Part shown: one piece after another, positions 4,258 to 20,784 of the stretch
How positions within the stretch are numbered: the first letter of the stretch is position 1
Layout: every line of letters begins with the position of its first letter
Assembly (NCBI RefSeq): GCF_019891175.1
Contig: NZ_CP072600.1
Coordinates: forward strand, 4,216,001 to 4,280,000
Reading direction: 5' to 3'
DNA length: 64,000 bases
From: Leptothermofonsia sichuanensis E412
GTDB taxonomy: Bacteria > Cyanobacteriota > Cyanobacteriia > Leptolyngbyales > Leptolyngbyaceae
The notes under the pieces: generated by a model
The model's input: only the letters and a program-made list of their open reading frames with translations
The model's database searches: none
What the model was told of the DNA's origin: nothing
Made by a program: the position numbers and the translations under genes

Positions 4258-4721
4258 ATGAACTCAAACTGGCTGAGTTGGAACCCGCTCAAAGCATCGT
4301 AAAGCTTTGCCAGTGGGAAGATACAGAGGCAGAAGCCGATGAAATGTGGAGTTTTGTCCAGTCTAAAGCCCAGCAACGTTGGTTATGGCATGCAATTGAC
4401 CATCACAGTGGAAAAATATTAGCTTATGTGTTGGCGACGCATCAAGATGAAGCATTCCTCCAACTCAAAGCGTTATTAGAACCGTTTGGAATTATGCAGT
4501 TTTACACAGATGGTTGGGGAACCTATGAGCGGCAGCTTGACCCAAGTCTTCATACCGTTGGCAAACAGAACACGCAGAAGATTGAGCGTAAGCATTTGAC
4601 TTTACGCACGCGCTTGAAGCGATTAGCTCGCAAAACTATTTGCTTTTCTAAGTCCATTCTGATGCATGACATTGTGATTGGGCTATTTATTAACCGTTAT
4701 GAGTTTGGTTTTGCTATCTAA
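4254..4721 (+). CDS. IS1 transposase second frame (InsB-like catalytic part)
   Basis: 155 residues with the IS1 catalytic domain: an early DEMWSFVQSKAQQRWLWHAIDH block, YTDGWGTYERQL with the second Asp, and a C-terminal TQKIERKHLTLRTRLKRLARKT with the Glu. These match the D-D-E triad of IS1. It starts within the stop region of the first frame, overlapping by 4 bases, and is expected to be expressed as a frameshift fusion through the A9 run at 4227-4235. Confidence 0.87.
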   Translation: MNELKLAELEPAQSIVKLCQWEDTEAEADEMWSFVQSKAQQRWLWHAIDHHSGKILAYVLATHQDEAFLQLKALLEPFGIMQFYTDGWGTYERQLDPSLHTVGKQNTQKIERKHLTLRTRLKRLARKTICFSKSILMHDIVIGLFINRYEFGFAI

Positions 4722-4749
4722 CCTAAAACAACAAGTCTAGAACACGACC

Positions 4750-4758
4750 GAATCTGAC
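4750..4758. repeat. Target site duplication of IS1, right copy
   Basis: Second copy of GAATCTGAC, identical to 3883-3891. Confidence 0.85.
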
Positions 4759-5269
4759 TGACCCAGGCTGGAAGCTGAGGGATCCCTCCCCCGTTAGCAA
4801 TGACGACTCGACGGGCGATGACCATTTGTCTGGTAGATAATTCCAGACAAAATTGGGATTGACGCCGACCTTTCAAAGGTTGAATCTGTTCAACTTGAGC
4901 TGGATACACGCAATGCTCCAACTGCCAGCGCCGGATCACATCCTGGCAAAAGTCTTGAAACAATTGAGTTCCCGGCAGGTCGTAGGGGGGAAACAGTTCG
5001 TGGGGGCGAGATTCGGCAAAGGTACGCAGGGCGTGAGGATCGGGATCGGGTTGATGGACTGCTGGCGATCTGAGGTGAGGAATTTCCAATGCGGCGAATT
5101 GGTGATTCCAGCGACTCATCCAGGTGCCGCTAGGGTCGAAGACGGGAAACCGTCCCCGCATCGATTTTTTCTTCTGCAAGAGGTGGGTCACCAACGTTAG
5201 CGCGTGGGGGCCTGCCCCGACAATCGCCAGGTCAATGAAGTCTGGCAGCGCAAACACGGCATCAGGCAT
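4759..5269 (-). pseudogene. FAD-dependent monooxygenase, N-terminal part (cut by IS1)
   Basis: About 170 gene-derived residues, then 13 more read from the IS before a stop at 4718. The N-terminus has an FAD-binding fold, DLAIVGAGPHALTLVTHLL, then FDPSGTWMSRWNHQFAALEIPHLRSP, typical of the lysine/ornithine N-hydroxylase-like FAD/NAD(P) family. With the C-terminal half (3131-3882) it makes a protein of about 410 residues. It is divergent from the SCO5389-like/COG0523 operon and shares with it a Zur box at 5288-5302, so it was probably zinc-repressed. The true substrate is unknown. Confidence 0.75.
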
Positions 5270-5287
5270 GAATCAAGTGTTAAATTA

Positions 5288-5302
5288 TGAGAACGATTAT
5301 CA
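5288..5302. promoter_or_regulatory. Zur box 1
   Basis: TGAGAACGATTATCA is an imperfect 7-1-7 inverted repeat matching the cyanobacterial Zur consensus (TGATAAN-N-NTTATCA type). It lies between divergent genes, 19 bases from the monooxygenase start and 56 from the SCO5389-like start, and could repress both. The box in front of hemB is nearly identical. Confidence 0.75.
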
Positions 5303-5357
5303 TTTTAGTTGTATCATAGGATGATATTTTGCAGTGAATGAATCATGAGGAGAAAAA

Positions 5358-5750
5358 ATGTCTTTGAATGTCAGTGAAACTCTGGTTCAACAGGCAGCAG
5401 TGGGTGAGGTAGATGAGCGAGTTTTTGTCGAAACCATTCGGCAATCCCTACCCTATGCTTGGGGCATCGTTGAAAAACTGGCTTACAGTCTGTATCAAGA
5501 AGGTGAGGAGTGGGCAAACTATGGGGTTGCTCCACCCAATGAACAGGCGTGGGGACAATTGCTGCGGATGGTGGGCGGCGATGCGATTCGGGGGGCAGTC
5601 GAGCGTCACTTTAACGTGAAGTTAGCGTTTCAAAACTGTCACATCCTGGCAGCCTTTCGCCCGGATCAGCTTAATTCAGAGGCTTATCTCGAGTTTACTT
5701 CTATACGCAGTCAAATCTTAAACCAGACGCCTGAGCTAAAAGACTGTTAG
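5358..5750 (+). CDS. SCO5389-family protein
   Basis: 130 residues. The body has a conserved MSLNVSETLVQQAAVGEVDE start, SLPYAWGIVEKLAYSL, and GGDAIRGAVERHFNVKLAFQNC; I recognise this combination from the SCO5389 family, whose function is unknown. A ribosome binding site (GAGGAG) lies 8 bases before the ATG. It is first in an operon with a COG0523 GTPase (15-nt gap) and two phosphoesterase-like proteins, behind Zur box 1. A zinc-deficiency role is therefore inferred from context, not from its own sequence. Confidence 0.65.
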   Translation: MSLNVSETLVQQAAVGEVDERVFVETIRQSLPYAWGIVEKLAYSLYQEGEEWANYGVAPPNEQAWGQLLRMVGGDAIRGAVERHFNVKLAFQNCHILAAFRPDQLNSEAYLEFTSIRSQILNQTPELKDC

Positions 5751-5764
5751 AAGTCAATGCAAAA

Positions 5765-6538
5765 ATGCAAACTTTGGAGATTACCCTCGTTACGGGATCC
5801 TCTGGTGCGGGTAAAACCACCTGGATACAGCAGCAGATTCGTCCGATTGCCGATACCGCAATCTATCTCAGTTTAGGTTCGGATGAAACGGCGATCGATG
5901 CGACTTATTTAGCGGCTGAAATTCCTGGACTCACAGTATTGCCTGTTACCCATCTAGCCAACTTTTCAGAACAGCCTCCAGACAAACATGTCATCTATCT
6001 GGAATTAGGATTTCATGTTGATTTAACCTCGCTCATTTTACCCGACAAGATGGTAGTCCACCGCCGAGTGGCAGTTCTGCCACCGGGAACTCGACACCCA
6101 GAATGCCATGATTGGGCAGATCTTGTGGTAACGGGTGTTAAGACGAGCGTAGCATTACAACAACCTCATCTTTGGCGTTCTGTTTTGTCGGGACAGGTAC
6201 TTGACCTGGCAAGTCTGAATACTTTCTGGTATGAACTGACCCATGGAGCGTATGGCACCATTCAGCGCGCAAAAGGTATCTTTGATGTCGCTGATGGGCG
6301 ATCGCTCTATTTTGATTTTGTAGCAGGACTTCCTGAAACAACCCATTTAGAACTGAATCTCCCTCTTTGGCTGAATGGCAGACCGGATCGTTTCAGTGGC
6401 ATCGAAGTTGTAGGGGAAATGTTAGATCAAGAAGCAATTGCTCAAACAATCAAGGAGTGCTGCTTAAATGATCAGGCAATTGCCTACTATCAGCAACAAA
6501 TTAAAGACTCATTAGAACCAGGAGATGAAGTAGCATGA
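5765..6538 (+). CDS. COG0523-type GTPase (CobW/P47K family), putative zinc metallochaperone
   Basis: 257 residues. A Walker A loop, TGSSGAGKTTW, is at about 10-20. The C-terminal third (FDVADGRSLYFDFVAGLPET, then LPLWLNGRPDRFSGIEVVG) resembles the CobW C-terminal domain. The classical metal-binding CxCC motif and the usual NKxD motif are not apparent, and the protein is shorter than the usual 320-400 residues, so it is a divergent subtype. COG0523 proteins under Zur control are thought to deliver zinc to key enzymes when zinc is scarce. The stop overlaps the next start by four bases (ATGA). Confidence 0.7.
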   Translation: MQTLEITLVTGSSGAGKTTWIQQQIRPIADTAIYLSLGSDETAIDATYLAAEIPGLTVLPVTHLANFSEQPPDKHVIYLELGFHVDLTSLILPDKMVVHRRVAVLPPGTRHPECHDWADLVVTGVKTSVALQQPHLWRSVLSGQVLDLASLNTFWYELTHGAYGTIQRAKGIFDVADGRSLYFDFVAGLPETTHLELNLPLWLNGRPDRFSGIEVVGEMLDQEAIAQTIKECCLNDQAIAYYQQQIKDSLEPGDEVA

Positions 6539-7347
6539 AAATTGCAGTGATGTCTTGCATTCACGGTAACTATGAAGCATTGAATGCGGTGCTATCCGAT
6601 ATTGATGACCAAAATGCAGATAAGGTCTATTGTCTCGGTGATTTAGTTGGGTATGGTCCTCATCCTAATGCCGTAGTGGAAATGATTCGCGCTCTGGATA
6701 TTCCCACCTGTCAGGGCTGTTGGGATGAAGATATTGTGGAAGGGTTGAATGCTTGTGAATGTAGTTACCCTTCTGTACTGGCGGAGAAGCGAGGCAAGTT
6801 GGCGCATGATTGGACGAATCAAGTGATTCACCCTGAAGTGCGAGAGTATTTGGCGCAGTTACCCTTTAGCTTGCGTGATGACAATCTATGTTTTGTTCAT
6901 GGCAGTCCTCACAATCAGCATGAATATCTATTGCCCGAAGTGAATGCGTTTGTGGCAATGGAGCGGGTATTGGCAACAGGTGCCGATGTTTTATTTTGTG
7001 GTCATACACATGTTCCTTACGTGCGATCGCTCGATGCAGGACAACTCCAAATTCGAGTCAAGGTGACAGGAAAATCAGAAGCAAATATGAGTTTTTCTGC
7101 ACCACTTAAACGCATTGTCAATGCAGGCTCTGTGGGGGAACCCCGTCATGGTAGACCGAATGCCACCTATGTGATTTATGACACGAATGATGATCAAATC
7201 ATTTTGCGAGAAGTGGAATATGACTATCAAAAAACCTGTGCTGCCATTATTGAAAAAGGCCTGCCGCCGATCTTTGCTTGGCGATTAGCGAGAGGGATGG
7301 AGTTTGCCGAACGAGCTGATGACCCAACTCATGTGTGTGAACGATAG
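6535..7347 (+). CDS. Metallophosphoesterase-family protein with altered first metal ligand
   Basis: 270 residues of the calcineurin-like YfcE/MJ0936-type fold. The block order is conserved: MSCIHGNYEAL (7-16), YCLGDLVGYGPHP (about 34-46), the WDE region in place of GNHD, FVHGSPHN (about 120-127) and FCGHTHVPY (about 155-163). In active members the first block is D-x-H-G-N; here that Asp is Cys (residue 8). This removes a ligand of the two-metal centre, or replaces it with one that prefers zinc or other soft metals. It is translationally coupled to the GTPase and followed 3 nt later by a second, more degenerate paralogue. Confidence 0.75.
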   Translation: MKIAVMSCIHGNYEALNAVLSDIDDQNADKVYCLGDLVGYGPHPNAVVEMIRALDIPTCQGCWDEDIVEGLNACECSYPSVLAEKRGKLAHDWTNQVIHPEVREYLAQLPFSLRDDNLCFVHGSPHNQHEYLLPEVNAFVAMERVLATGADVLFCGHTHVPYVRSLDAGQLQIRVKVTGKSEANMSFSAPLKRIVNAGSVGEPRHGRPNATYVIYDTNDDQIILREVEYDYQKTCAAIIEKGLPPIFAWRLARGMEFAERADDPTHVCER

Positions 7348-7349
7348 CT

Positions 7350-8087
7350 ATGACCATCTGGGCAATTTTAAGTGGAATAGAAGGTAATTTAGCGGCATAT
7401 GAAGCAGTACTTACAGATATCAAACGGCAACGACAACCAATCGAAGAACTGTATATTTTAGGTGATGTAATTGCCGCAAGACCTGAAAGTAAAAATGTGA
7501 TTGAACGGATCAGATCGCCGCGTGCTAATGAACCCGAACCTCAAGTGTGTCAAGGTTGGTGGGAAGAACAGTTACTCATCTTGCATGGCTTAGGACGAGC
7601 GGGAGAACCGACTGAACTGATTGAGCGCTTTGGGATGGAAACTGTGAAAATATTGTGGGATGCCATTCCACGACATATGGTGGAATGGGTGCGATCGCTT
7701 GATTTCGGTTTCTTTGAACTAGATTGCTTACTGATTCACGGTAGTAGTGTCAGTGTCAGTGATGAATTGACTCCAAATACACCGCCGATGCAGATGCTTG
7801 ATCGACTGATGCGGATGGATGCAAACCTATTGTTCTGTGGTCGCTCTGGTTTAACGTTTCAGTATGAAATCCAACAAGGTAGCGTGACATCCAGCATCAT
7901 AACACTAGATCAAGCAACTTCACCGCAGGCGACCTTTGTTCGACCTCGACAAATTGTTGGTGTTGGGAATGTTGGACGTGTTCCTGGACAGGCAACCTAC
8001 ACCCTCTACAATCCAAATACAAATCAGCTTGAATTTAGAACAGTGCGGTATGCTTCAGGGAAAGGGTTTCAGCGAGCCAGACAATGA
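7350..8087 (+). CDS. Degenerate metallophosphoesterase paralogue (probable pseudoenzyme)
   Basis: 245 residues and collinear with the preceding protein, but most metal ligands are changed. The first block is SGIEGN instead of SDIHGN, the GD of the second block remains (ILGDVIAARPES), the HGS block remains (IHGSSV), and the GHTH block has become CGRSGL. The frame is intact and the fold landmarks (QGWW, VGNVGRVPGQATYTLYN) are kept, so this looks like selection for a non-catalytic role rather than decay. A regulatory or scaffolding partner of the upstream paralogue is a reasonable inference. It ends just before the convergent zur gene. Confidence 0.65.
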   Translation: MTIWAILSGIEGNLAAYEAVLTDIKRQRQPIEELYILGDVIAARPESKNVIERIRSPRANEPEPQVCQGWWEEQLLILHGLGRAGEPTELIERFGMETVKILWDAIPRHMVEWVRSLDFGFFELDCLLIHGSSVSVSDELTPNTPPMQMLDRLMRMDANLLFCGRSGLTFQYEIQQGSVTSSIITLDQATSPQATFVRPRQIVGVGNVGRVPGQATYTLYNPNTNQLEFRTVRYASGKGFQRARQ

Positions 8088-8098
8088 CAACACAAGGT

Positions 8099-8533
8099 TT
8101 ACCTCGGTTGCTGAATACACAGTTCACACAAACCAAAAAACTCTAGCGTGTGGTAGTAAATTTTGAATGGCACCGAGTGTTGCAAGGGTATTTCTAAGTC
8201 GTGCACAGGACAATAATCCAAGGGGAACGATCGCCCACATTGCAAGCACGTTAAATAATGCTGATCTTGCTCCACCGAACTGTAGAGTGATTCTCCATTA
8301 ACACTCACCCGACTCTGGATCAATCCGCGGCGCTTTAGGGTTTCCAGTGCCCGGTATACGGTTGCTAAACCAATCCCCTGTTGCTGCCGCAGAACACTAT
8401 ACAATGCCTGAGCCGAAACAGGTTGGGGTTGCTGGCTCAGCACATCCAACACGGTTTGTTGGTGTCGTGTCAGGCGAGCCGAATAGGTCATGGAATGCAT
8501 ACAGTTTTTTGGGGGAAAAGACTCATTTTTCAC
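8099..8533 (-). CDS. zur: Zur/FurB zinc uptake regulator
   Basis: 144 residues of the Fur family. The winged-helix part has LTRHQQTVLDVLSQQ and GIGLATVYRALETLKRRGLIQ, followed by SGESLY-type sequence (NGESLYSSVEQDQHYLTCLQCG) and a second Cys pair, FGLCELC, near the C-terminus. The two CxxC pairs are the structural zinc site. The stretch YCPVHDLE and KIYYHTLEFFGLC match the cyanobacterial Zur (FurB) subgroup rather than FurA or PerR. The start at 8533 gives a 14-residue N-terminal tail; MHSM or MTYS a few codons later are alternatives. The gene faces hemB across Zur box 2 and may be autoregulated. Confidence 0.85.
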   Translation of the reverse strand: MKNESFPPKNCMHSMTYSARLTRHQQTVLDVLSQQPQPVSAQALYSVLRQQQGIGLATVYRALETLKRRGLIQSRVSVNGESLYSSVEQDQHYLTCLQCGRSFPLDYCPVHDLEIPLQHSVPFKIYYHTLEFFGLCELCIQQPR

Positions 8534-8557
8534 GACGAGTGCTGTAGAATGAGAGAA

Positions 8558-9652
<1,095 letters not shown>

Positions 9653-9853
9653 TGAGTAATCAATGCCCAGATCCTGCTTGCCTCCAAAGCTAAGTAGAGA
9701 GTTGTGAACCGCAACCGATTCCTCAGGATTTTTCCATGAGATTCTCTATTTTCATAGAAACTTCATACAATCCGTGCATTTAGTTGACTAAATTCTCAAT
9801 AGAGAGGAACACTGTTTGGCGATCGACATACAGTAATTTGAGGGCTTTTACCA

Positions 9854-10579
9854 ATGTTTAAATGTTCAATTTCGCTGACAGTTTCAACACTTGGTTTGGT
9901 TTTGCATGGTGCATTGGCAATCCCGGCGCAAGCAGTGACTTTTCAACTGGGTTGGACGGGACAAATTGCAGGCTTTCGCATCGATGGTGCGTTTGGCTAT
10001 GACGAAACCAGGAATTATACAGATGGCATTGTTAGAACCGGAGATTTAGATTTTTTAACAGTTTCCTTCTTGGCTCCCGATGGTTCTCTCTTAAGAACAT
10101 ATGCTAATAATCATCTTGATCCGGGGGTCAATTTTAATTTTGACACGAGAACACAACAAATTCTCCAATATGGAAACTTCAATGATCCGGATGGCATCAA
10201 TATTGGTGCCCCTAACTACGATCGCGAGAGTGGGAATGATCCCAGTCAGGCAAGGGGGCTGAGTTTTTGGTCGAAGCCCCCGCGTAGTTCAGTTCCGCAC
10301 GTTCACTTTGATGACTGGGCAAATGAGTTTGGTTTTCCAGTTGGGTTTGGTTCTCATGAAGATGTTGCTTTTTTTGAGCGCACGACGGCGCAGTTGCTGG
10401 CCACAGGACGGGTGGGTGAGGCCTATCGAGACTCCCTAGCGCAAGGAGCGACTCTAAACGATTTCGGTCAACCGATGACAGCCGCAATACCTGAACCAAG
10501 CACGATTTTAGGACTGAGTCTTGCCGGGGTAGGAGGGTGGATGGCTCGTAAGCGGCGGCGGATAGCCGTTGACAAATAA
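9854..10579 (+). CDS. PEP-CTERM sorted exported protein
   Basis: 241 residues. An N-terminal signal peptide (about 1-27, ending AIPAQA) and a C-terminal PEP-CTERM sorting tail: AIPEPST, a hydrophobic helix ILGLSLAGVGGW and the basic end ARKRRR. The family is exported and processed by an exosortase. The middle (about 28-210) is a single domain with Gly/Asp/Asn-rich sequence and no recognisable catalytic motif; the pattern LDFLTVSFLAPDGSLLRTY is typical of cyanobacterial PEP-CTERM proteins of unknown function. It stands alone, with a long hairpin downstream. Confidence 0.8.
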   Translation: MFKCSISLTVSTLGLVLHGALAIPAQAVTFQLGWTGQIAGFRIDGAFGYDETRNYTDGIVRTGDLDFLTVSFLAPDGSLLRTYANNHLDPGVNFNFDTRTQQILQYGNFNDPDGINIGAPNYDRESGNDPSQARGLSFWSKPPRSSVPHVHFDDWANEFGFPVGFGSHEDVAFFERTTAQLLATGRVGEAYRDSLAQGATLNDFGQPMTAAIPEPSTILGLSLAGVGGWMARKRRRIAVDK

Positions 10580-10592
10580 CCCATTCAGTATT

Positions 10593-10660
10593 GGTGAAAG
10601 CTGTAAGATGCAGATTAGCAATGAATTCTTCATTAGTCTGCATCTTATAATGCTTTCACC
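10593..10660. terminator. Long imperfect hairpin after the PEP-CTERM gene
   Basis: GGTGAAAGC...GTAAGATGCAGA pairs with TCTGCATCTTAT...GCTTTCACC, giving arms of about 26 bases around a loop near CAATGAATTCTTCATT. It starts 14 bases after the stop codon. There is no clear T run, so it may be a bidirectional barrier, an mRNA end-stabiliser or a mobile repeat rather than a classical terminator. Confidence 0.5.
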
Positions 10661-10716
10661 TTTGGCCACTGGGTCTCAGTATTGTGGCAACCCAGTTAGT
10701 GTTGCAGGCAGCCTGG

Positions 10717-10857
10717 ATGAAGGTAAGTGAAACCTTCCCGGATAATTTCAAAGAGGCAACGCGAAAAGATGCAGGAGCAGAAGGGCTACGGCGTTACACC
10801 CGAGTGAAAGCATTTTTGAGAATCCCACTGAAAATCCGATCAGCCCAGAAGCGTTAG
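10717..10857 (+). other. Short open frame, doubtful
   Basis: 46 residues from an ATG at 10717, basic and without a known family (contains FPDNFKEATRKDAGAEGLRR). The open frame continues upstream without a start, and it abuts the convergent amidase relic, so it may be the tail of a lost gene. Confidence 0.25.
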
Positions 10858-10867
10858 AAGCATACTA

Positions 10868-11536
10868 TCAAAACCGAGGTGCATCCTCTTGTCCAGTCAC
10901 AAAGCCCACTTCCACCAGCACCGCAGGCATCGCGGTACGAACCAGAACATAAAAGCGAGCACGTTTCACACCCGATCGCGCATTCCAGTTCTTGCCAGCA
11001 GTTGTTGTTGAATATGTTCTGCCAGTCGTTGTCCCTCTCTGCTACCCGCAACATGAAAGGTTTCGATCCTATTCACCTCTGGACGGCTCATGCTGATGGC
11101 ATTGGCATGAATGCTGACAAAGAGGGTGGCGCGAGCACGGTTCGCAATATCTAACGCGGTTATAAGCCCAAATCCACATCTGTCTGTCGGGTCAAGATTG
11201 CCTGGATTCCTTGATTCTCTAGCAAACTGGCGACTTGTAAACTGATGTCTAAGACAATGTCTTTTTCGTAAATCTCGCCAATTCCAACTTCACCGGGATC
11301 AGGACCCCCATGCCCTGGATCAATGACCACAATGGGGCGCTGCTGGGGTAGAAGATTGGTTGGATGGGGTGAGAAAACTGGGGCTGTTGGTGCAGGTTCT
11401 ATCCTTTCTGGGACAGAGTTGTTGGGAACGGTCATCGTCTCACCAGCAGGCGATGAGGGGAGGGTTGAGCGGTGACCACAGCAGCTTGCAGCCAGATCAG
11501 TCCAAAACAGCCAACGAATTGCCAATGAAATTTCAC
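10868..11536 (-). pseudogene. Broken N-acetylmuramoyl-L-alanine amidase (Amidase_3)
   Basis: A secreted zinc-dependent wall amidase that has lost its frame in three places. A GTG at 11536 begins a signal peptide (VKFHWQFVGCFGLIWLQAA). A shift leads to the linker and the catalytic start VIDPGHGGPDPGEVG with IYEKDIVLDISLQVASLLE, ending at a premature stop at 11160. A second shift continues with DIANRARATLFVSIHANA, the second zinc His. A third shift near 10963 leads to AMPAVLVEVGFVTG, the catalytic Glu. All family blocks are present in order, so decay is recent. It is divergent from thrS over Zur box 3. Confidence 0.75.
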
Positions 11537-11598
11537 GAATTTGAAGTCCAGAAAGCTGAAGAGCCGAGTTTTTTGCGTTAAGCTGGATGATTATAATA

Positions 11599-11613
11599 TG
11601 AGAATGATTATTA
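11599..11613. promoter_or_regulatory. Zur box 3
   Basis: TGAGAATGATTATTA, differing from box 2 at a single base. It lies 12 bases upstream of the thrS fragment ATG and about 60 bases from the amidase relic start. Confidence 0.7.
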
Positions 11614-11625
11614 TTTTTATCAATT

Positions 11626-11946
11626 ATGGTCAGTTCTGTTCTTCAGTCTTCTTCCAATCAAACCAGCACTGAAAGACTGCTACGGATTCGGCATACCTGC
11701 GCTCATGTGCTGGCAATGGCAGTACAAACGCTGTTTCCAGAGACAAACGTGACGATTGGACCCTGGACAGACACCGGCTTCTACTATGACTTTGACCGTC
11801 TGGAACCCTTCACCCCTGACGACCTCGTTGAGATTGAAGTTGAGATGCGGCGTATCATTAGTGCCAATCTGCCTATTATTCGAGAAGTCGTCGATCGCGA
11901 ACAAATTCGGGCAGAAATTGAGCAGCTCAACGAACCCTACAAGCTA
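11626..11946 (+). pseudogene. thrS: Threonyl-tRNA synthetase paralogue, N-terminal fragment
   Basis: About 107 residues before the IS junction, starting MVSSVLQSSSNQT. The segment LLRIRHTCAHVLAMAVQTLFP, then IGPWTDTGFYYDFD and the EIEQLNEPYKL end, is the beginning of the ThrRS editing domain. The TGS domain is absent, as is common in cyanobacterial second copies. The catalytic and anticodon domains are gone: an IS630-type element starts at 11947 and on its far side lies an unrelated isiA fragment. In Anabaena a second ThrRS is reported in the Zur regulon; this looks like its relic. Confidence 0.8.
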
Positions 11947-11953
11947 TACCTTG

Positions 11954-12436
11954 TCAGGGTATAGTTTTTACTTGTTTAAAGGACTGAAAACGCAAGGTTA
12001 ACAGTGAATCTAACTCAGGTTTATACGTCGTATGACACTGGTTGAGACAAGCAGTAATCGCCTCCTTAAATGCAGAGAAGTCAGCATAATAAATCGAATA
12101 TAAGCATTGCTTCTTGACAAACTTCCACAAGCGCTCAATCAAGTTGAGATTGGGAGAATAGACCGTTAGATACAACAACTCAATGTTCAATGATTGAGCC
12201 AACTCCATCACAACCGCACACTTCTGATACCGAGCGTTATCCAACACAAGCGTAATCGGAATGTCTAATCCCAGAGCTGCCAGTTTGTGCAGTAATTCAC
12301 AGACACTTTGAGCGTTGATATAAGTCTCATTGGTGACGGTGATTAACGCATGAGTCACGGCGTTGAGGGCCCCTAAGACATTGAACCGTTGCCTTCCTGC
12401 CCCCGACTTGATAAACAAGCGTTCAAAGCACCACAA
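11954..12436 (-). CDS. IS630 transposase, catalytic half (second frame)
   Basis: 160 residues from the first start codon in this frame; open sequence extends upstream through KAGQRAVFFVDAAHFV to the end of the first frame. Catalytic landmarks are FFVDAAHFVLGAYLG (first Asp), ITLVLDNARYQKC (second Asp) and LLYLTVYSPNLNLIERLW (Glu), the DDE pattern of IS630. A run of eight A on the coding strand (8 T around 12530-12537) lies at the boundary of the two frames and would allow -1 slippage to make one protein. Confidence 0.82.
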   Translation of the reverse strand: MWCFERLFIKSGAGRQRFNVLGALNAVTHALITVTNETYINAQSVCELLHKLAALGLDIPITLVLDNARYQKCAVVMELAQSLNIELLYLTVYSPNLNLIERLWKFVKKQCLYSIYYADFSAFKEAITACLNQCHTTYKPELDSLLTLRFQSFKQVKTIP

Positions 12437-12525
12437 AAACCCTAAGTAGGCCCCCAGAACAAAATGGGCAGCATCGACAAAGAAGACGGCTCTCTGACCT
12501 GCTTTTGCCTCTTGCAGTCGTGGGT

Positions 12526-12993
12526 CTAGTTTTTTTTGACGAACTCCTCCTGCGCTTCTACATCAGCTTTGGCGGGCAACATCCCCACTCGCCGACAACG
12601 CATCCCCATCGATTTGAGAAACACCCTCACTTGCTCCCGACTACGGACAATACCAGTCAGTTCTTCGATCTTGGCGCAAGCCTGCGCTAGGGTCTTTGGA
12701 GGATTTGCCCGGAAGTATGCTTCCAAAGTCTGTTGATGTTGTTTCAGTTCACTCTGGGGTCGATAAAAGGTCAATTCTTTGAGATTGCCGATCCCCCCAG
12801 TTTCATAATCTCGCAGATAGCTCAACAACGTTGGTTTTGTCACCCGAAGCAACCGGGTAATTTCCTGATGCGAGTATCCTTGACTTTTGAGATACAACGC
12901 TTCCATTTTTTGTTGCACACGCGGATGTGGATGGTGAAAGCGTTCGTAATGTAGTTGCTCAATCTCTTCGGCACTAAAGCTCAGTTGGATCAT
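12526..12993 (-). CDS. IS630 transposase, DNA-binding half (first frame)
   Basis: 155 residues with a helix-turn-helix (QGYSHQEITRLLRVTKPTLLSYLRDY) and a second paired-like region (PPKTLAQACAKIEELTGIVRSREQVRVFLKSMG). It ends at the A-rich slip site, after which the catalytic half continues in another frame. The frame is intact, unlike in copy 2. Confidence 0.82.
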   Translation of the reverse strand: MIQLSFSAEEIEQLHYERFHHPHPRVQQKMEALYLKSQGYSHQEITRLLRVTKPTLLSYLRDYETGGIGNLKELTFYRPQSELKQHQQTLEAYFRANPPKTLAQACAKIEELTGIVRSREQVRVFLKSMGMRCRRVGMLPAKADVEAQEEFVKKN

Positions 12994-13540: not shown

Positions 13541-13551
13541 GTGAGCTAGTG

Positions 13552-15132
13552 ATGACCACAACAACCAATCAAGTTTCAACTCCAGTTTCAACAGACACAG
13601 CAAAGCTAGATTTTCCTGACAGTACCCTTGAAACCCGCTACGTCAAAGATGCTATCAATCCCACATCCTGGTGGGCAGGCAATTTCCGATTTGTTAACCT
13701 ATCTGGAAAGTTGCTGGGTGCCCACATTGCCCATGCTGGATTGATTGTTCTCTGGGCGGGCGCGATGACGCTGTTTGAGTTGTCGCGCTTTGATCCAACG
13801 ATGCCGATGTCCCAGCAGAGTTTAATTTTATTACCTCACCTGGCAGCATTAGGGTTTGGAGTAGGTCAGGGGGGGCAAATTGTAGATACCCAGCCCTACT
13901 TTGCGATCGCAGTGGTTCACCTGATCAGCTCAGCGTTTTTGGGAGCTGGAGGTATCTACCATGCCGTACTGGGACCAGAAACCCTGGATGAGAAAGGTTT
14001 TGGCTATCGGTGGGAAGATAGCAATAAAATGACCACCATTCTGGGCATTCACCTGGTGTTGCTGGGTTTAGGGGCATTGTTGTTCGTAGCCAAAGCTGTT
14101 TTCTGGGGTGGGTTGTACGATCCAGTGGTTGAAACGGTGCGATCGATTGACCACCCGACCTTGAATCCGCTGACTATCTTTGGTTACCTGGTTGGGATTA
14201 CGCCAGAAGGGTGGACGCTGCGAGGAATGGCCGCGGTTAATAATCTGGAAGATGTGGTTGGAGGGCACATCTGGGTTGGCACACTCTGCATTCTGGGTGG
14301 TCTCTGGCATATCGTGACGGCACCCAGGCGGTGGGCAAAAGGTCTGTTTCTCTGGTCAGGGGAAGCGTATTTGTCCTACAGTCAGGGAGCGCTGGCATAC
14401 ATGGGGTTTCTGGCAGCCTATTTCGTCAGCGTTAATGACACGGTTTATCCGAGTGTGTTTTATGGGCCGGTAGGAGTGCGAGCAGTGGATAGTATTATCA
14501 CATCCCGTACCTGGCTGGCCTGGTTTCACATTCTATTTGCCAGTTTACTGTTGCTGGGGCACTGGTGGCATGCCGGGCGATCTCGCATGATTGCAGCCGG
14601 GTTCAATTTCAGCACCATGAAGTTCAATCCGAATGCACTCTTTGGCGATACTCAATTCAATAGCGAGCCTTTGTTTACAGGGATAGTGCAACCGTACAAA
14701 AACGATCCATTTCAGGGCAACCTGGCTACCCCAATCAACAACAGTGATGTTGTACTTAATTGGGTCAAAGCACTCCCCATTTATCGCCAGGGGCTTTCTC
14801 CAATTAGCAGAGGACTGGAAATTGGCATGGCTCATGGTTATTTTCTGCTCGGTCCCTTTCTCAAATTGGGGCCACTGCGGGATACAAGTAATGCCCTGCT
14901 GGCGGGTGCCCTTTCTGCAGGTGGTTTGGTGCTGATTCTCACCGCTTGCCTTTCCATCTATGGAGCTGCTGTATGCCAGGCGAATAAAAAGCCAGTGGGT
15001 GAGCTTCCTGATAACCTGCAAACCTTCCGAGACTGGGGCTTATTTTCCTCCGGGTTTCTGATTGGCGGCTTGGGTGGCATTATTTTTGCCAGCTTCATAC
15101 TGCTGGAAATTCAGCGTTCAGGAATTGGGTAA
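13552..15132 (+). CDS. IsiA/Pcb-type chlorophyll antenna fused to PsaL
   Basis: 526 residues from the ATG at 13552. Residues about 35-350 are a six-helix CP43-like chlorophyll-binding domain ([63 protein letters not shown]), lacking the large lumenal loop of true CP43. Residues about 375-526 are a PsaL-like domain: [19 protein letters not shown], then [23 protein letters not shown], three helices and an end like that of PsaL2 at 31772. Such fusions (CBP type V) are known next to isiA in some cyanobacteria and are thought to bind at the PsaL edge of photosystem I. It is followed by flavodoxin, another iron-starvation gene. Confidence 0.88.
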
Positions 15133-16480: not shown

Positions 16481-17047
16481 ATGAAGCACTTTACTGTTCG
16501 CATGGTTCAAAATGAACAAGAGTTGATGGCATTGCTATATCAACGATGGCTCGTCCTCCGAAAGCCATTGGGCATGCCCCAGGATACAGAAACTGACCGC
16601 TACGAGGAGCAATCGGTTCACCTTATTGCGGTCATCCCAGAAGGTGTCAAGAGTTCACCCGCTCAAGGTGTAGAAAAGATCATCGGTTCTGCCCGTCTAC
16701 GCGAACTTTCGCCTGGCATTGGTGGCATTTCCTATATTGCAGTTTTACCCGAATTTCAAAATCAAGGGGTTGGCTCTGCTTTAATTCAATCCTTGATTGC
16801 GCTTGCAAAAAAACAGCAATTTCACCAACTCAAACTTCGATCGCGCCTCTCTGCGGCTGGCTTTTACGAGCACTTCGGTTTCATCAGCCAGGGAGCACCC
16901 ATCGACTATTTAGGAATTCCTCATATCTTAATGTCCCTAACACACCAACTTCAGGGCTATCAGTGCGTTACAGCTTCACCTAACACACCCTACGAAATCA
17001 TAATGAACTTCCGAAATAGGTATGAACAAACGCTGCCGGGTTATTAG
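16481..17047 (+). CDS. GNAT-family N-acetyltransferase
   Basis: 188 residues. Acetyl-CoA binding motif A is ISYIAVLPEFQNQGVGSALIQSLIALAKK (about 87-115), followed by motif B LRSRLSAAGFYEHFGFISQG. The N-terminal RKPLGMPQDTETDRYEE is typical of the ElaA/YjdJ-like group. The substrate cannot be told from sequence. The gene is single and convergent with the sucrase-ferredoxin gene. Confidence 0.82.
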   Translation: MKHFTVRMVQNEQELMALLYQRWLVLRKPLGMPQDTETDRYEEQSVHLIAVIPEGVKSSPAQGVEKIIGSARLRELSPGIGGISYIAVLPEFQNQGVGSALIQSLIALAKKQQFHQLKLRSRLSAAGFYEHFGFISQGAPIDYLGIPHILMSLTHQLQGYQCVTASPNTPYEIIMNFRNRYEQTLPGY

Positions 17048-17083: not shown

Positions 17084-18061
17084 TTATGCACTTAAACCGA
17101 CTGACCAGACTGAATGCAGAGAGAGCTGATCTACCCTGTACTTAATAAATTTAGACTCTTTGATTGCGTTACAGGATCCTTTTAGACAAAGGGTTTTGCA
17201 TAAATCCTGAGTCAACTCAGCTCGATAACGGTAGATAGAATTATCAAGCGTTTTGAATGCCAATTCCACATGCAGCCAATCTTGATTTTCACTCTGATCT
17301 ATGATCGTGTGCTTGATCTTGTAGTTAAACCACTCCCATCCACACTTGAACATCAATTCTCGTTCTAAAACCTGTAGGAATGTTGGTAAAATCCCCCAAC
17401 CTCGATAAACGGATTGCAGATTTAAGATGCTTCCCGTACGAGTCAAAATGGCTTTCAGCATTGCCTCATCCAGTGCGCCATAGTAACGACCATCGGGCAA
17501 GGTAATTGCCGTTGGTGCAAAGCGATGCCCACCAAAGTGACTTGCCTTCCAAATGCGAATTGAATCCAGCTTTAGTTGGGAGACAGTGGAAACAGCCTGT
17601 CGATAGAAGGGTAACCCATACTTGGCACAGCACTGATCATGTATTCCATGGGTACAAATGAGAATATCTTGAACCTTGTTCGTCAGATCTACAGTTTTGG
17701 GGCGCTCTCCTGCCAGGTAAGCTCTCACAATCTCAGCCACCTGTTCGATATGATCGACATCCCATTCAAATTTTTGATAACCACCTACAAAAGCTTCATT
17801 CTCTTGTTGATAAATCAAAAGCTTGGTTTGAGAGGGCTGCCGCTGTTGAGGCGCAACCAGTAGAAACCGAATCGATAATTTTGCCTGCCAAACTTCTTGC
17901 ACCAGATCTCGCAAGTTTTGGGGGATAGCCAGGGAATCAAAGGCTTCAAAAGCCCAGGGCATGGGACATTCTACTAAAACATAAGTCACGTAAGGTGTAC
18001 CACTGCCGATCATGTCTTCATTAGCTTGACGAGAAGCGTCTGCACAAAAGAATTTAGCCAT
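17084..18061 (-). CDS. Sucrase/ferredoxin-like (Suc_Fer) protein
   Basis: 325 residues from ATG 18061; an upstream in-frame extension overlaps the JmjC gene and is less likely. The family has a thioredoxin-like [2Fe-2S] ferredoxin fold. Visible landmarks are FCADASRQANED at the start, ILICTHGIHDQCCAKYGLPFYR (about 158-179, the iron-sulfur Cys region), ASHFGGHRFAPTAITLPDGRYYG and a C-terminal Cys pair (CKTLCLKGSC). It may pass electrons to a partner oxygenase. It begins one base after the JmjC gene stops, so the two are translated together; a Suc_Fer protein as electron donor for the JmjC oxygenase is an inference. Confidence 0.78.
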   Translation of the reverse strand: MAKFFCADASRQANEDMIGSGTPYVTYVLVECPMPWAFEAFDSLAIPQNLRDLVQEVWQAKLSIRFLLVAPQQRQPSQTKLLIYQQENEAFVGGYQKFEWDVDHIEQVAEIVRAYLAGERPKTVDLTNKVQDILICTHGIHDQCCAKYGLPFYRQAVSTVSQLKLDSIRIWKASHFGGHRFAPTAITLPDGRYYGALDEAMLKAILTRTGSILNLQSVYRGWGILPTFLQVLERELMFKCGWEWFNYKIKHTIIDQSENQDWLHVELAFKTLDNSIYRYRAELTQDLCKTLCLKGSCNAIKESKFIKYRVDQLSLHSVWSVGLSA

Positions 18062-18062
18062 C

Positions 18063-19217
18063 TTAAACGTCTGCCTCCACAAAGAGAATGCCTTCTGCAA
18101 CCAAGTGTGATAGTAGGGGCATGACATCTATTTCCCAGTCATAGCCGGGGAGCCATCGTAAAACATCTCGTCCGGTAAATGATGACTGCTGAAATAGATG
18201 CTCTACCAGTGTTGCAGTTACTCCTCTCAGTAAAATTTCTCGACCTGAAACCAGGACACGAAAGCCTTCTTCAGGCAGTTCTATGATTTGGATCGGCTGA
18301 AATTGAATGCATTGAAAGCGGGTATCAATTCCTTTAGGAAACTGATCAAACCCTGACTGGCGTGGAAAATCATATCTCTTGACTGGCTGAGCCAGACTAT
18401 CGAGATAGCCTTGATAGCGATCGCCCAGCAGTGGCTCGGTGAGTGTTTCTGAAACCTGTTGAACCAAACTGGATAGATGCTGACCAATGGTTTTGTTTTC
18501 ACATTTAGCGGGTAAACTTTTGCGCCACTCAACTTGCTGACGTAGATTATGAATGAGCCATTCCAGTAGATCAATTCCAGTTTTGACATGGATCCCCAGT
18601 GTCAGATGCAGGGATGGTGACTCTGTTGCAATCGCATAATGCCAGTGGCCTTTCGGAATGTAGAGGACATCCCCCGGATGCAATACACAGCTTAGATAGG
18701 GTGGATCGGTAGGAGGAGACAATTCGGCTGATTTCTGCTCTGGTAAAGGATACTTAAACGTATCTTGAAAAATATGCCATTCCTTACTGCCCTCAATCTG
18801 TAAAATGAACACTTCATGGGTATCGTAGTGACAAGAAAATCCTTGCTGCTGAGGATAGGAGCTATAGGCATTTACCTGAGTGCGAAAGCCAAAGATTTGT
18901 CTTAGTTCAGCAGCAAATTGGGCGATCGCCGGAACCCGTTTATGCACCTGATTAATAATCAAAGTAGCTCCTTGCTGGCACCAATGCAACAAGCGCTCAT
19001 TCTCAGACTCCTCCAACACTTTCTCATTCAGCGCCAATCGCAAATCGGGATAGTCGATCTGATGAAAATTCAACAAGTCATTCAAGACTTCCCAAGAAAA
19101 TAAATGAGAAAATCGCCGTGGCTCCTTACCCGCGATCGCAAGTGCCTGAGCCGTCCAGTACCGCTCTTAAAACGTTGCCATGTCACAGGGATGTAGAAGC
19201 GACTGCAAAGCATTCAT
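18063..19217 (-). pseudogene. JmjC/cupin oxygenase gene with an early in-frame stop
   Basis: From ATG 19217 the frame reads MNALQSLLHPCDMATF, then TAA (19167-19169), then continues without a shift as ERYWTAQALAIAGKEPRRFS to the end at 18063, about 384 codons in all. The body is a JmjC fold like ribosomal protein hydroxylases: iron ligands in SCHYDTHEVFILQIEGSKEW (H-x-D) and the distal His in LHLTLGIH, plus a C-terminal winged-helix-like part. These are Fe(II)/2-oxoglutarate oxygenases. No ATG restores a full protein after the stop; TTG at 19085 would omit the first 44 residues. It could still be made by restart or read-through, so it may be only partly inactive. Suc_Fer follows directly. Confidence 0.65.
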
Positions 19218-19222
19218 TTTAA

Positions 19223-19237
19223 TAAGAACTATTATCA
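19223..19237. promoter_or_regulatory. Zur box 4 (upstream of JmjC)
   Basis: On the minus strand TGATAATAGTTCTTA, an inverted repeat with one perfect half site (TGATAAT). It ends 5 bases before the ATG at 19217, the same close spacing seen at hemB and thrS. Confidence 0.6.
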
Positions 19238-19277
19238 ATAGTAGAGCAGGTTTTCCAGTGTGTCCAGAAATTTGAAA

Positions 19278-19299
19278 AAGGGGTAAATAGTTACCCCTT
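19278..19299 (-). terminator. Rho-independent terminator after the small peptide gene
   Basis: On the minus strand AAGGGGTAA-CTAT-TTACCCCTT followed by TTTC: a perfect 9-bp stem, 4-base loop and T run. It lies between the peptide gene and the JmjC gene, so the peptide can be made in excess of downstream proteins. Confidence 0.75.
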
Positions 19300-19356
19300 A
19301 ATCGAGACTATTGATAGCTGGTTAAAATCCAGGAGAGAAATTAGAAGTCTAGCAAT

Positions 19357-19503
19357 CTACTCGTTGCTGACATCACCACCATCACCGTCCACATCATGAT
19401 GGCGAACCACCACCTGTTTACTCACAACAGGAATTTCTCGAATTTGAACCTGAATTTTGCTAGAACGAACCTGGGTAGAGGTTGATACATTTGTTCGTTG
19501 CAT
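19357..19503 (-). CDS. 48-residue peptide, possible precursor of a modified peptide
   Basis: Starts at ATG 19503 with GGAG 8 bases upstream. The N-terminal part is Ser/Thr/Val/Gln-rich and basic (MQRTNVSTSTQVRSSKIQVQ); the C-terminal part is RHHDVDGDGGDVSNE, rich in His, Asp and Gly. This leader/core-like split, its strong terminator and a JmjC oxygenase plus ferredoxin-like protein just downstream resemble a RiPP locus. No known RiPP leader motif is recognised. It could also be an unmodified small metal-binding protein. The nearby Zur box points to zinc. Confidence 0.5.
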   Translation of the reverse strand: MQRTNVSTSTQVRSSKIQVQIREIPVVSKQVVVRHHDVDGDGGDVSNE

Positions 19504-19622
19504 TACCACAATCTCCAAATTAAAATACACCCAAACTCTCCGCAAGTCCTGCCAACTTAGAGCAAAAGAAAATTGCGAAGATTTTCATTAGACTATCCCA
19601 AAGTCTAAAAAAGAGCAAGCTA

Positions 19623-20735
19623 TACCTTGTCAGGATATAGTCTTAACATCTTTGAAGGACTGAAAACGCAAAGTTAACAACGAGTCCAATTCTTGTTGAT
19701 AAATCGTATGGCACTGGTTCAGGCAAGATAAAATGGCCTCCTTAAACGCAGTAAAGTCAGCATAGTCAATCGAGTATAAACACTGTTTCTTCACAAACTT
19801 CCATAACCGCTCAATCAAATTCAAATTCGGAGAATAAGCAGTCAGATATAACAACTCGATGTTCAACGATTGAGCTAACTCCAGCACCACTGCACACTTT
19901 TGATATCGGGCATTATCAAGGACGAGCGTAATCGGAATACTCAATTCCAGTGCCCCAATCGTGTGCCACAACTCGCAGACCCTGGCGGCATTGATATAAG
20001 TCTCATGGGTCACCAGAATCAACTCATGGGTGATGGTGTTCAACGCACCCAGGACATTCAACCGTTGTCGTCCAGCTCCCGATTGAACAAACAGACGCTC
20101 AAAGTACCAAAGGAAACCGAGATACGCCCCTAACACAAAGTGGGCCGCATCGACAAAGAACACTGCTCGCTCTCCGGCTTTCGCCTCTGCCAATCGCGGT
20201 TCTAGTTTCTTTGAGAAATTCCTCCTGCGCTTCGGGGTTGGCTTTGGCAGGCACGCCCCCCACGCCGCGGCAACACATGCCCAGCAATTTGAGGAAACAC
20301 CCGCACTTGCTCTCGACTGCGGACAATCCCTGAGAGTTCTGCAATCTTGGCTGCGGTTTGTGCCAAGGTTTTGGGTGGATGCTCCCGAAAGTACGCTTCC
20401 AGACTCTCCTGATGCTGCTTCAATGCACTTTGGGGTCTGTAGAAATTCAATTGCTTGAGTTTGGCAATGCCTCCGCTCTGATACTCCCGCAAGTAGCTCA
20501 ACAATGTGGGGTCCGTGATCCGTAGCAATTAGACAATTTGCCCATGCGCGCATCCCTGACTTTTGAGATACACTACTTCCATTTTTTGCTGGACTCGAGG
20601 ATGGGGATGATGGAAGCGTTCGTAATGAAGTTGTTCAATCTCCTCTTTCGTGAAAGCCAGCTTAATCAAGCTCAGCTCAAATGTAAAGGGTCTCTTTCAC
20701 TTTTTGCAATCTGAAATCTATGCCCTGCTAAAGTA
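19623..20735 (-). mobile_element. IS630/Tc1-type insertion sequence, copy 2 (degenerate)
   Basis: About 1.11 kb, ends TACCTTGTCAGGATATAG and, in reverse, TACTTTAGCAGGGCATAG, with flanking TA (19621-19622, 20736-20737). It is clearly related to copy 1 but diverged throughout. Both copies have the same AAGC before the left TA. Confidence 0.85.
19630..20674 (-). pseudogene. IS630 transposase of copy 2, frameshifted
   Basis: The catalytic half is open and keeps FFVDAAHFVLGAYLG, ITLVLDNARYQKC and TAYSPNLNLIERLW. The DNA-binding half has an in-frame stop in the helix-turn-helix region (near 20528) and further frame changes around 20200-20330. The A-rich slip site of copy 1 is interrupted (AAAGAAACT). 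It is probably not autonomous. Confidence 0.75.
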
Positions 20736-20769
20736 TAGCGAGGTTTGGCAAAAGCTGTCCTTGCTATAT

Positions 20770-20784
20770 TGATAATGATTATCG
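20770..20784. promoter_or_regulatory. Zur box 5
   Basis: TGATAATGATTATCG is a 7-1-7 palindrome with a single mismatch, the best Zur-box match in the window. It lies 21 bases upstream of the oxidoreductase relic ATG at 20806. Confidence 0.75.

Follow-up and report, generated by a model that had tools for sequence, protein, structure and literature searches.

The 64,000-nucleotide stretch analysed here (the window) spans C1:4216001–4280000 of the 6.43-Mb single-contig genome of Leptothermofonsia sichuanensis E412 and contains a gene for a 48-residue peptide, a gene for a JmjC_2 oxygenase, and a gene for a sucrase/ferredoxin-like (Suc_Fer) protein. Comparison with other loci makes it probable, though well short of certain, that this trio is a damaged copy of a system widespread in cyanobacteria and resembling those for ribosomally synthesized and post-translationally modified peptides (RiPPs), in which the JmjC oxygenase would hydroxylate Asp or Asn residues of the peptide core and in which one class of loci, class A, would be metal-regulated. 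The elements named in a preliminary description of the locus were all found, on the minus strand, from sequence, open reading frames (ORFs), and Pfam matches:

19357..19503, minus strand: peptide ORF with ATG start, 48 aa, ending RHHDVDGDGGDVSNE; leader-like motif IQVQIREI and Asp/Gly core DVDGDGGD; resembles a class A precursor.
~19273-19299, minus strand: terminator-like hairpin with T run, 3′ of the peptide gene; 9-bp stem AAGGGGTAA-CTAT-TTACCCCTT, then T.
19223..19237, no strand assigned: Fur/Zur-type box TGATAATAGTTCTTA, 13/15 to the consensus TGAKAATNATTMTCA (equalled in 0/200 shuffles), directly before the JmjC start codon.
18063..19217, minus strand: JmjC_2 oxygenase frame (PF08007, 93.6 bits versus a cut-off of 22) with a C-terminal domain like a RiPP recognition element (RRE) or winged helix.
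19169-19167, minus strand: in-frame TAA near the JmjC N terminus; the next start, TTG at 19085, gives a 340-aa ORF.
17084..18061, minus strand: Suc_Fer-like gene (PF06999, 94.9 bits versus a cut-off of 34.9), its ATG one base past the JmjC stop.

A GGAG sequence lies 9 nt 5′ of the peptide ATG.

A conserved peptide gene precedes the JmjC_2 gene

The search for homologues of the JmjC protein covered 388 genomes of the class, of which 39 had a match at E ≤ 1e-10, as well as 291 genomes of one order (59 with a match at E ≤ 1e-40), 36 genomes of one family (five matched, with no new class A locus), and a contig collection (three named loci). The locus set comprises 89 fetched stretches and the window, 90 loci in all. 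Models of two peptide classes, built from nine class A and fifteen class B seeds chosen by eye, were searched against the six-frame translations of these loci, which comprise 13,382 ORFs. At E < 1e-3 there are 33 matches with the class A model and 39 with the class B model, together 72 matches (71 ORFs, 24 of which are seeds), and all 72 lie upstream of the JmjC gene on the same strand, a position that holds 696 of the 13,382 ORFs. With a class called at a model E < 2 in the right position (E < 1e-3 in 32/34 class A and 39/42 class B loci; the weaker-scoring L123 and L124 were accepted in class A, and L060, L118, and L122 in class B), 34 loci are class A, 42 are class B, and 14 are neither, placing a peptide upstream of JmjC in 76/90. 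The window peptide, itself a seed of the class A model, matches that model at 9.3e-22 and has homologues in 33 other loci. Among 1,828 control ORFs from 46 loci, including seven of the about 17 more distant JmjC_2 matches, the best model match reached only E 9.5.

The preliminary description had made its interpretation depend on a conserved peptide beside JmjC/Suc_Fer pairs in other genomes. Such a peptide accompanies both JmjC and Suc_Fer in 30 other class A loci, and its conservation extends to the protein sequence, which includes a leader-like motif and, at some loci, repeated cores. The window peptide is 62% identical to that of L040, with a nonsynonymous divergence (dN) of 0.26 and a synonymous divergence (dS) of 1.43, and purifying selection is seen in six of ten peptide pairs (dN/dS 0.14–0.22; window–L040, L037–L041, L099–L103, L100–L108, L107–L109, and L104–L106); dN/dS is 0.27 for L101–L108 and 0.38 for L110–L113, and dS is 0 for L094–L095. 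A search with the peptide only, in 42 genomes of the family (its own included), returned besides itself two weak matches (E 0.29 and 0.63), neither of them in a related gene context, and overlooked the class A peptide of genome G009 (L043), later reached via JmjC. For the peptides scanned, out of the 76 found, no family scored above its curated cut-off in NCBIfam (seven peptides) or Pfam (six and the window peptide).

Class A peptides are about 40–65 aa long from the likely ATG, have no signal peptide by eye, and carry the leader motif I-x-[VI]-E-[VI]-[KR]-[ED]-I (33/34 match the search pattern), followed by an Asp/Gly core that in most contains DxDG[GSD]D. Units of the DADGGD type occur twice in L104, L106, L107, L109, and L113 and three times in L110 and L111, and related core doublets are present in L043 and L114. 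The preliminary description had read a His/Asp core in the window peptide: Asp is borne out, together with Gly, as a kept residue across class A, and the two His are not kept. Class B peptides are longer, with a hydrophobic, signal-like start, the motif [IV]-E-V-E-V-V-[ND]-L (33/42 match), and, in many, tails with SN, NQD, DYDQ, RNND, or DYSRN repeats. Signal-like starts, many with NQD, DYDQ, or similar repeats, are seen in L118 (two copies), L127–L130, L135–L137, and L139–L148; these class B peptides are perhaps secreted. The leader pattern common to both classes, I-x-V-E-V-x-x-[IL], was written after the peptides were seen and has a background of 158 in 5,658 ORFs of 40–180 aa. Asp and Asn make up 23% of class A tails and 28% of class B tails versus 10% of the JmjC proteins, which suggests Asp/Asn as the likely target of modification.

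As judged from sequence, the loci thus present a gene-encoded, conserved putative precursor beside a candidate modifying enzyme, with a separable leader motif and a variable or repeated core, and we class the system as RiPP-like, short of a proven RiPP. It is very unlikely that the peptide is instead a calcium-binding protein in which the C-terminal DxDxDGxxxxxE of the window peptide forms an EF-hand-like loop. The segment DVDGDGGDVSNE does fit the 12-residue loop pattern, and the Glu at position 12 also ends several homologues, e.g., those of L040, L042, and L037; the spacing, however, is lost elsewhere, with L043, L044, L045, L104, L110, L111, L114, and L124 lacking the terminal Glu and keeping only the D/G units, and Pfam finds no EF-hand in the window peptide or in the six others scanned (class A or A-like, and class B).

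The preliminary description had also taken the terminator between precursor and enzymes as a sign of a RiPP locus. That sign is not class-specific: hairpins at P ≤ 0.05 are found in 13/34 class A gaps and 11/42 class B gaps, and the window hairpin is not exceptional (P 0.125 versus 40 shuffles). From the interpretation as a whole, the conserved peptide and the Zur box (below) have support, and the His part of the core and the terminator sign do not.

The C-terminal domain of the JmjC_2 protein is compatible with leader binding

The HxD...H ligands H130, D132, and H193, the last of which we take to be the third metal ligand, reach at least 95% conservation across 65 sequences, and the nearest solved sequences are NO66, MINA53, and the YcfD type. 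An AlphaFold model of the homologue L037, made from four sequences, has a mean predicted local distance difference test score (pLDDT) of 47.2 and a predicted template-modelling score of 0.30, with residues 301–383 at pLDDT 71–87. The C-terminal domain of this model matches the C-terminal part of MINA53 (Z 10.2) and NO66 (7.8), and also RRE-bearing chains, namely PbtF (7.4), TigE (7.0), a McbBCD chain (6.9), TbiB1 (6.9), PqqD (6.6), and TruD (6.2), with Z 5–7.4 to several RREs; Z values below 8 may reflect merely a common arrangement, and folds absent from the comparison are uninformative. The predicted fold is compatible with leader binding, without proving it. Foldseek with the whole L037 model returned nothing under E 0.001, because the N-terminal part of the model is poor.

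An ordinary ribosomal-oxygenase-type enzyme acting on a cellular protein, with the peptide as a small protein, regulatory or metal-binding, linked to it by no more than a common regulon and neighbourhood, would account for the nearest solved sequences and for the better fit of the C-terminal domain to the MINA53 winged helix; the box between peptide and JmjC genes also means that the two may be transcribed apart. We regard this explanation as unlikely, since the differing peptide forms track the enzyme tree, mostly with one leader-like motif and in part with repeat cores, and since no such peptide accompanies the seven more distant JmjC_2 loci examined. Specifically, on a JmjC tree with 83 rows, the labels of the peptide classes require 8 changes versus a shuffled mean of 35.2 (class A 3, class B 5), near-copies among the rows favouring such clustering. 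Elsewhere in the window's genome, at C1:842 kb, lies a JmjC_2 gene that is more distantly related and that we read as YcfD-like.

Suc_Fer is linked to class A: a homologue is present in the fetched stretch of 31/34 class A loci (30 besides the window), 3/14 unclassed loci, and 0/42 class B loci, the stretch of L096 ending 1.1 kb after the start of the JmjC match and those of the class B loci L063 and L143 extending less than 1.6 kb downstream. The gene adjoins JmjC in most loci and lies at +6.2 kb in L045. In Suc_Fer, a putative [2Fe-2S] protein, residues C28, C158, H160, H163, C166, C167, H197, and H201 are kept in at least 30/31, and a sequence comparison with solved structures gave no relative of the protein (best E 0.69). 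A GNAT homologue is found near 22/34 class A, 2/14 unclassed, and 0/42 class B loci.

Half of the class A loci carry a Fur/Zur-type box

A box scoring at least 13/15 against the consensus lies between peptide and JmjC in 17/34 class A gaps, in each case beginning 16–31 nt before the usual position of the JmjC ATG, versus 0/40 class B gaps (two more being too short). The consensus was picked after the first nine class A loci had been viewed, so that those nine are not blind, and class B serves as the control. Upstream of the peptide the same score is reached in 2/34 class A and 0/42 class B loci; the box is thus confined to the peptide-to-JmjC gaps. Because it adjoins the JmjC start codon, the box does not in itself establish a promoter. 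Control of class A by a metal regulator is well supported. The window has six sites at or above 13/15 (5288, 8558, 11599, 19223, 20770, and 38554), the first three of which flank a COG0523-like gene (named by reading; no Pfam or NCBIfam match), a Fur-family regulator, HemB, and a truncated ThrS. The regulator is the following gene:

8099..8533, minus strand: Zur-like Fur-family regulator gene (PF01475; closest PDB entry 7ne9 with E 7.7e-31 and 110 bits, the runner-up having 54 bits).

7NE9 is the Zur of Synechococcus WH8102 (PMC9337993). In NCBIfam, all scores of the window regulator are below cut-off, the best being to a Fur model. The Zur box of the preliminary description therefore has support in the distribution between classes and in this nearest solved structure, and, from sequence, Zur rather than Fur is the better guess for the class A regulator. 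In L106 (genome G516), if ORFs shorter than 85 aa are disregarded, the class A peptide has immediately upstream of it a gene with 63% identity to the window regulator. The ZnuA-family gene of the same genome as the window (C1:5820238) has TGAGAACTGTTATCA upstream; among ZnuA-family loci, a box of at least 13/15 occurs within 450 nt upstream in 4/17, a count without shuffle control, and the box centres are by eye more GC-rich than in class A. The Anabaena FurA consensus AAATAAATTCTCAATAAAT, as given in an excerpt of PMC4005646, is AT-rich and of another type than the class A box, and furA of Anabaena is described as regulated by Zur in the part of PMC10957091 consulted.

Iron may nevertheless be the metal sensed, because isiA-type and flavodoxin genes adjoin the trio in the window and FeoA-like ORFs (by reading) lie near L107 and L109. 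Iron, with Fur, was in fact the first reading, taken from the isiA-like and flavodoxin neighbours; it was weakened by the Zur-like gene, by the zinc-type island described below, and by L142, the one class B locus of 42 with isiA-like, flavodoxin, COG0523-like, and phosphoesterase genes nearby, which means that such gene company is not unique to class A.

The zinc-type island (window 4718-11964) comprises the Zur-like regulator, HemB, the COG0523-like gene, a metallophosphoesterase, amidase and ThrS fragments, and three Fur/Zur-type boxes. A PEP-CTERM-like protein, just below the Pfam cut-off, is encoded within it at 9854-10579, and a full-length match to PF20704 (KH_NucS_shadow) at 5358-5750 precedes the COG0523-like gene. 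At 13549-15132, a photosystem II antenna-type domain (PF00421) and a PsaL domain (PF02605) are joined in a single ORF, and a flavodoxin gene follows.

The product might be a ribosomally made metallophore, i.e., a zincophore or siderophore, in which the β-hydroxy-Asp made by JmjC in each DxDG[GS]D unit chelates zinc or iron, import is through TonB, and Suc_Fer frees the metal reductively or feeds the enzyme. We hold this to be rather doubtful. It agrees with the box in class A, with the resemblance of the zinc-type island to zepA neighbourhoods (PMC10957091, as far as consulted), and with the use of β-hydroxy-Asp as an iron ligand in a cyanobacterial siderophore (PMC12628792, likewise in part). 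In addition, genes for a TonB receptor, Peripla_BP_2, and a major facilitator superfamily (MFS) protein lie beside L045 and L124, and L124 has a second, weak peptide copy (E 0.036) beyond its TonB gene. This uptake cassette, however, is present in only 2/34 class A loci, with a TonB gene in one more; isiA-like genes are near 2/34 class A loci but also 1/42 class B loci; no signal peptide is visible by eye in the class A peptides; and the evidence does not separate iron from zinc. If true, it would provide a ribosomal counterpart of the known β-hydroxy-Asp siderophores.

Proposed mechanism and points that weigh against it

In the RiPP-like system that we favour, the precursor would combine a motif for recognition, similar to SKIQVEVKEI, with an Asp/Gly core at its C terminus. 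Upon metal starvation, the regulator would leave the box, and JmjC and Suc_Fer would be made. JmjC_2 would bind the peptide motif, probably through its predicted RRE/winged-helix domain, and, with Fe(II), 2-oxoglutarate, and O2, would hydroxylate core residues, most likely Asp (Asn or Asp in class B relatives), and the leader may be cleaved. Suc_Fer would give electrons to JmjC, possibly keeping its iron reduced as the preliminary description suggested, or act on a metal complex, and the product may have a role in metal handling; where TonB, binding-protein, and MFS genes adjoin, as in L045 and L124, a metallophore cycle would be plausible. The peptide class looks like the starting material of undescribed, metal-responsive, enzymatically modified peptides.

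Several points weigh against the RiPP-like system. With regard to the peptide, 14/90 loci have none by either model, the pair L094–L097 shows no clear purifying selection (dN/dS 0.69, at a dS of only 0.06), and the counts are not independent because several genomes are congeners. With regard to the enzymes, a stop codon interrupts JmjC in the window copy, L114 and L116 have no Suc_Fer within 9.5 kb downstream, and the predicted RRE is not separable from the winged helix of ribosomal oxygenases because the latter scores higher. Neither a protease nor a transporter accompanies the loci consistently: homologues of the L045 TonB, binding-protein, and MFS genes were found with L045 and L124 (2/34 class A) and with L151, those of the L052 TonB gene with L052 only, other kinds having had no systematic search. 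The whole is built on sequence and predicted fold.

The window copy and its surroundings

Further features around the trio are as follows:

16481..17047, plus strand: GNAT acetyltransferase gene, convergent neighbour of the trio.
19616..20742, minus strand: transposase gene remnant, read as IS630-type (DDE_3 match), between the peptide gene and the box at 20770.
20770..20784, no strand assigned: further Fur/Zur-type box (14/15), beyond the transposase gene.

The window copy is probably decaying or inactive, given the in-frame JmjC stop and the transposase gene upstream, or else the stop is an assembly error. The TAA falls in the N-terminal JmjC segment, in which P10, F16, W21, F36, F40, and W42 show conservation of at least 95% across 65 JmjC proteins. 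The transposase remnant has imperfect inverted ends (17/24, without chance comparison), and the 20770 box is possibly the former promoter site of the peptide gene. A second related remnant, also read as IS630-type, lies at 11954-12993 (kin of 19630-20669) and overlaps the end of a shortened ThrS-like ORF. The same genome has a class B JmjC at C1:5.137 Mb (L048), whose match is free of stops; one may speculate that this enzyme could in principle act on the window peptide.

Unclassed loci and other gene arrangements

Among unclassed loci, L039 (from a metagenome-assembled genome titled Deltaproteobacteria) combines Suc_Fer with a peptide in which two GEGEGGD-type units can be made out by eye, and has, by reading, a neighbouring ABC transporter; L126 and L138 have a third peptide type upstream of JmjC, which starts like a GG leader and ends in an Asp/Asn-Val tail; and L151 and L153 have Suc_Fer and a JmjC match without its first part. 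The trio recurs on a plasmid of Nostoc sp. C057, annotated in order as a hypothetical protein (46 aa, ending GGEGDDNA), a cupin, and a sucrase ferredoxin, at 31% JmjC identity. Two Streptomyces plasmids (L197 5721-7946; L199 3221-5446) encode a 43-aa hypothetical protein, a cupin/JmjC protein, and an aldo/keto reductase, possibly another peptide-modifying cluster; a third stretch, from Embleya, is unannotated. In L054, an ORF read as a SagB-type oxidoreductase ends immediately before the JmjC gene.

Comparison with known systems

The window neighbourhood resembles that of ZepA/Zur zinc acquisition, as described in the part of PMC10957091 consulted, in its Zur-like gene, ThrS and amidase fragments, COG0523-like gene (by reading), and PEP-CTERM-like protein. 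The text of PMC10957091 does not contain 'ferredoxin', 'oxygenase', 'JmjC', or 'Suc_Fer'. If the favoured system is real, it would tie peptide hydroxylation to metal starvation.

Fusions of PF08007 to an RRE have been reported by Bregman et al. (mSystems 2025; PMC12710340), according to whom, in the parts examined, the eukaryotic fusions have their nearest bacterial homologues in RiPP-like contexts. As in those fusions, PF08007 is here joined to what is predicted to be an RRE-like fold. The paper refers to JmjC twice only in its main text, and the parts examined are silent on a precursor class, a core, a Suc_Fer partner, and a metal box; in open-licence PMC text we found no paper on this peptide family, and the sole JmjC-RRE statement that we found there is in PMC12710340. 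The present loci, if correctly read, would constitute a RiPP-like family in at least nine cyanobacterial families, with a JmjC with a built-in recognition domain as the only constant candidate enzyme.

NO66, MINA53, and YcfD share with the present enzymes the JmjC_2 domain, HxD...H, and a C-terminal winged helix; unlike in those, JmjC is here linked to a peptide gene, which names a concrete candidate substrate for JmjC_2 proteins outside the ribosome. BpmG is reportedly a cupin/JmjC hydroxylase of biphenomycin-type RiPPs. PbsQ, likewise of a biphenomycin-type RiPP, is a cupin/JmjC-type enzyme that hydroxylates a RiPP precursor, according to the portion of PMC12257519 consulted. As described there, PbsQ tailors Orn beside a multinuclear non-heme iron-dependent oxidative enzyme, an arginase, and a B12-dependent radical S-adenosylmethionine enzyme, whereas in the present loci no candidate modifying enzyme other than JmjC is constant and the cores are rich in Asp/Asn.

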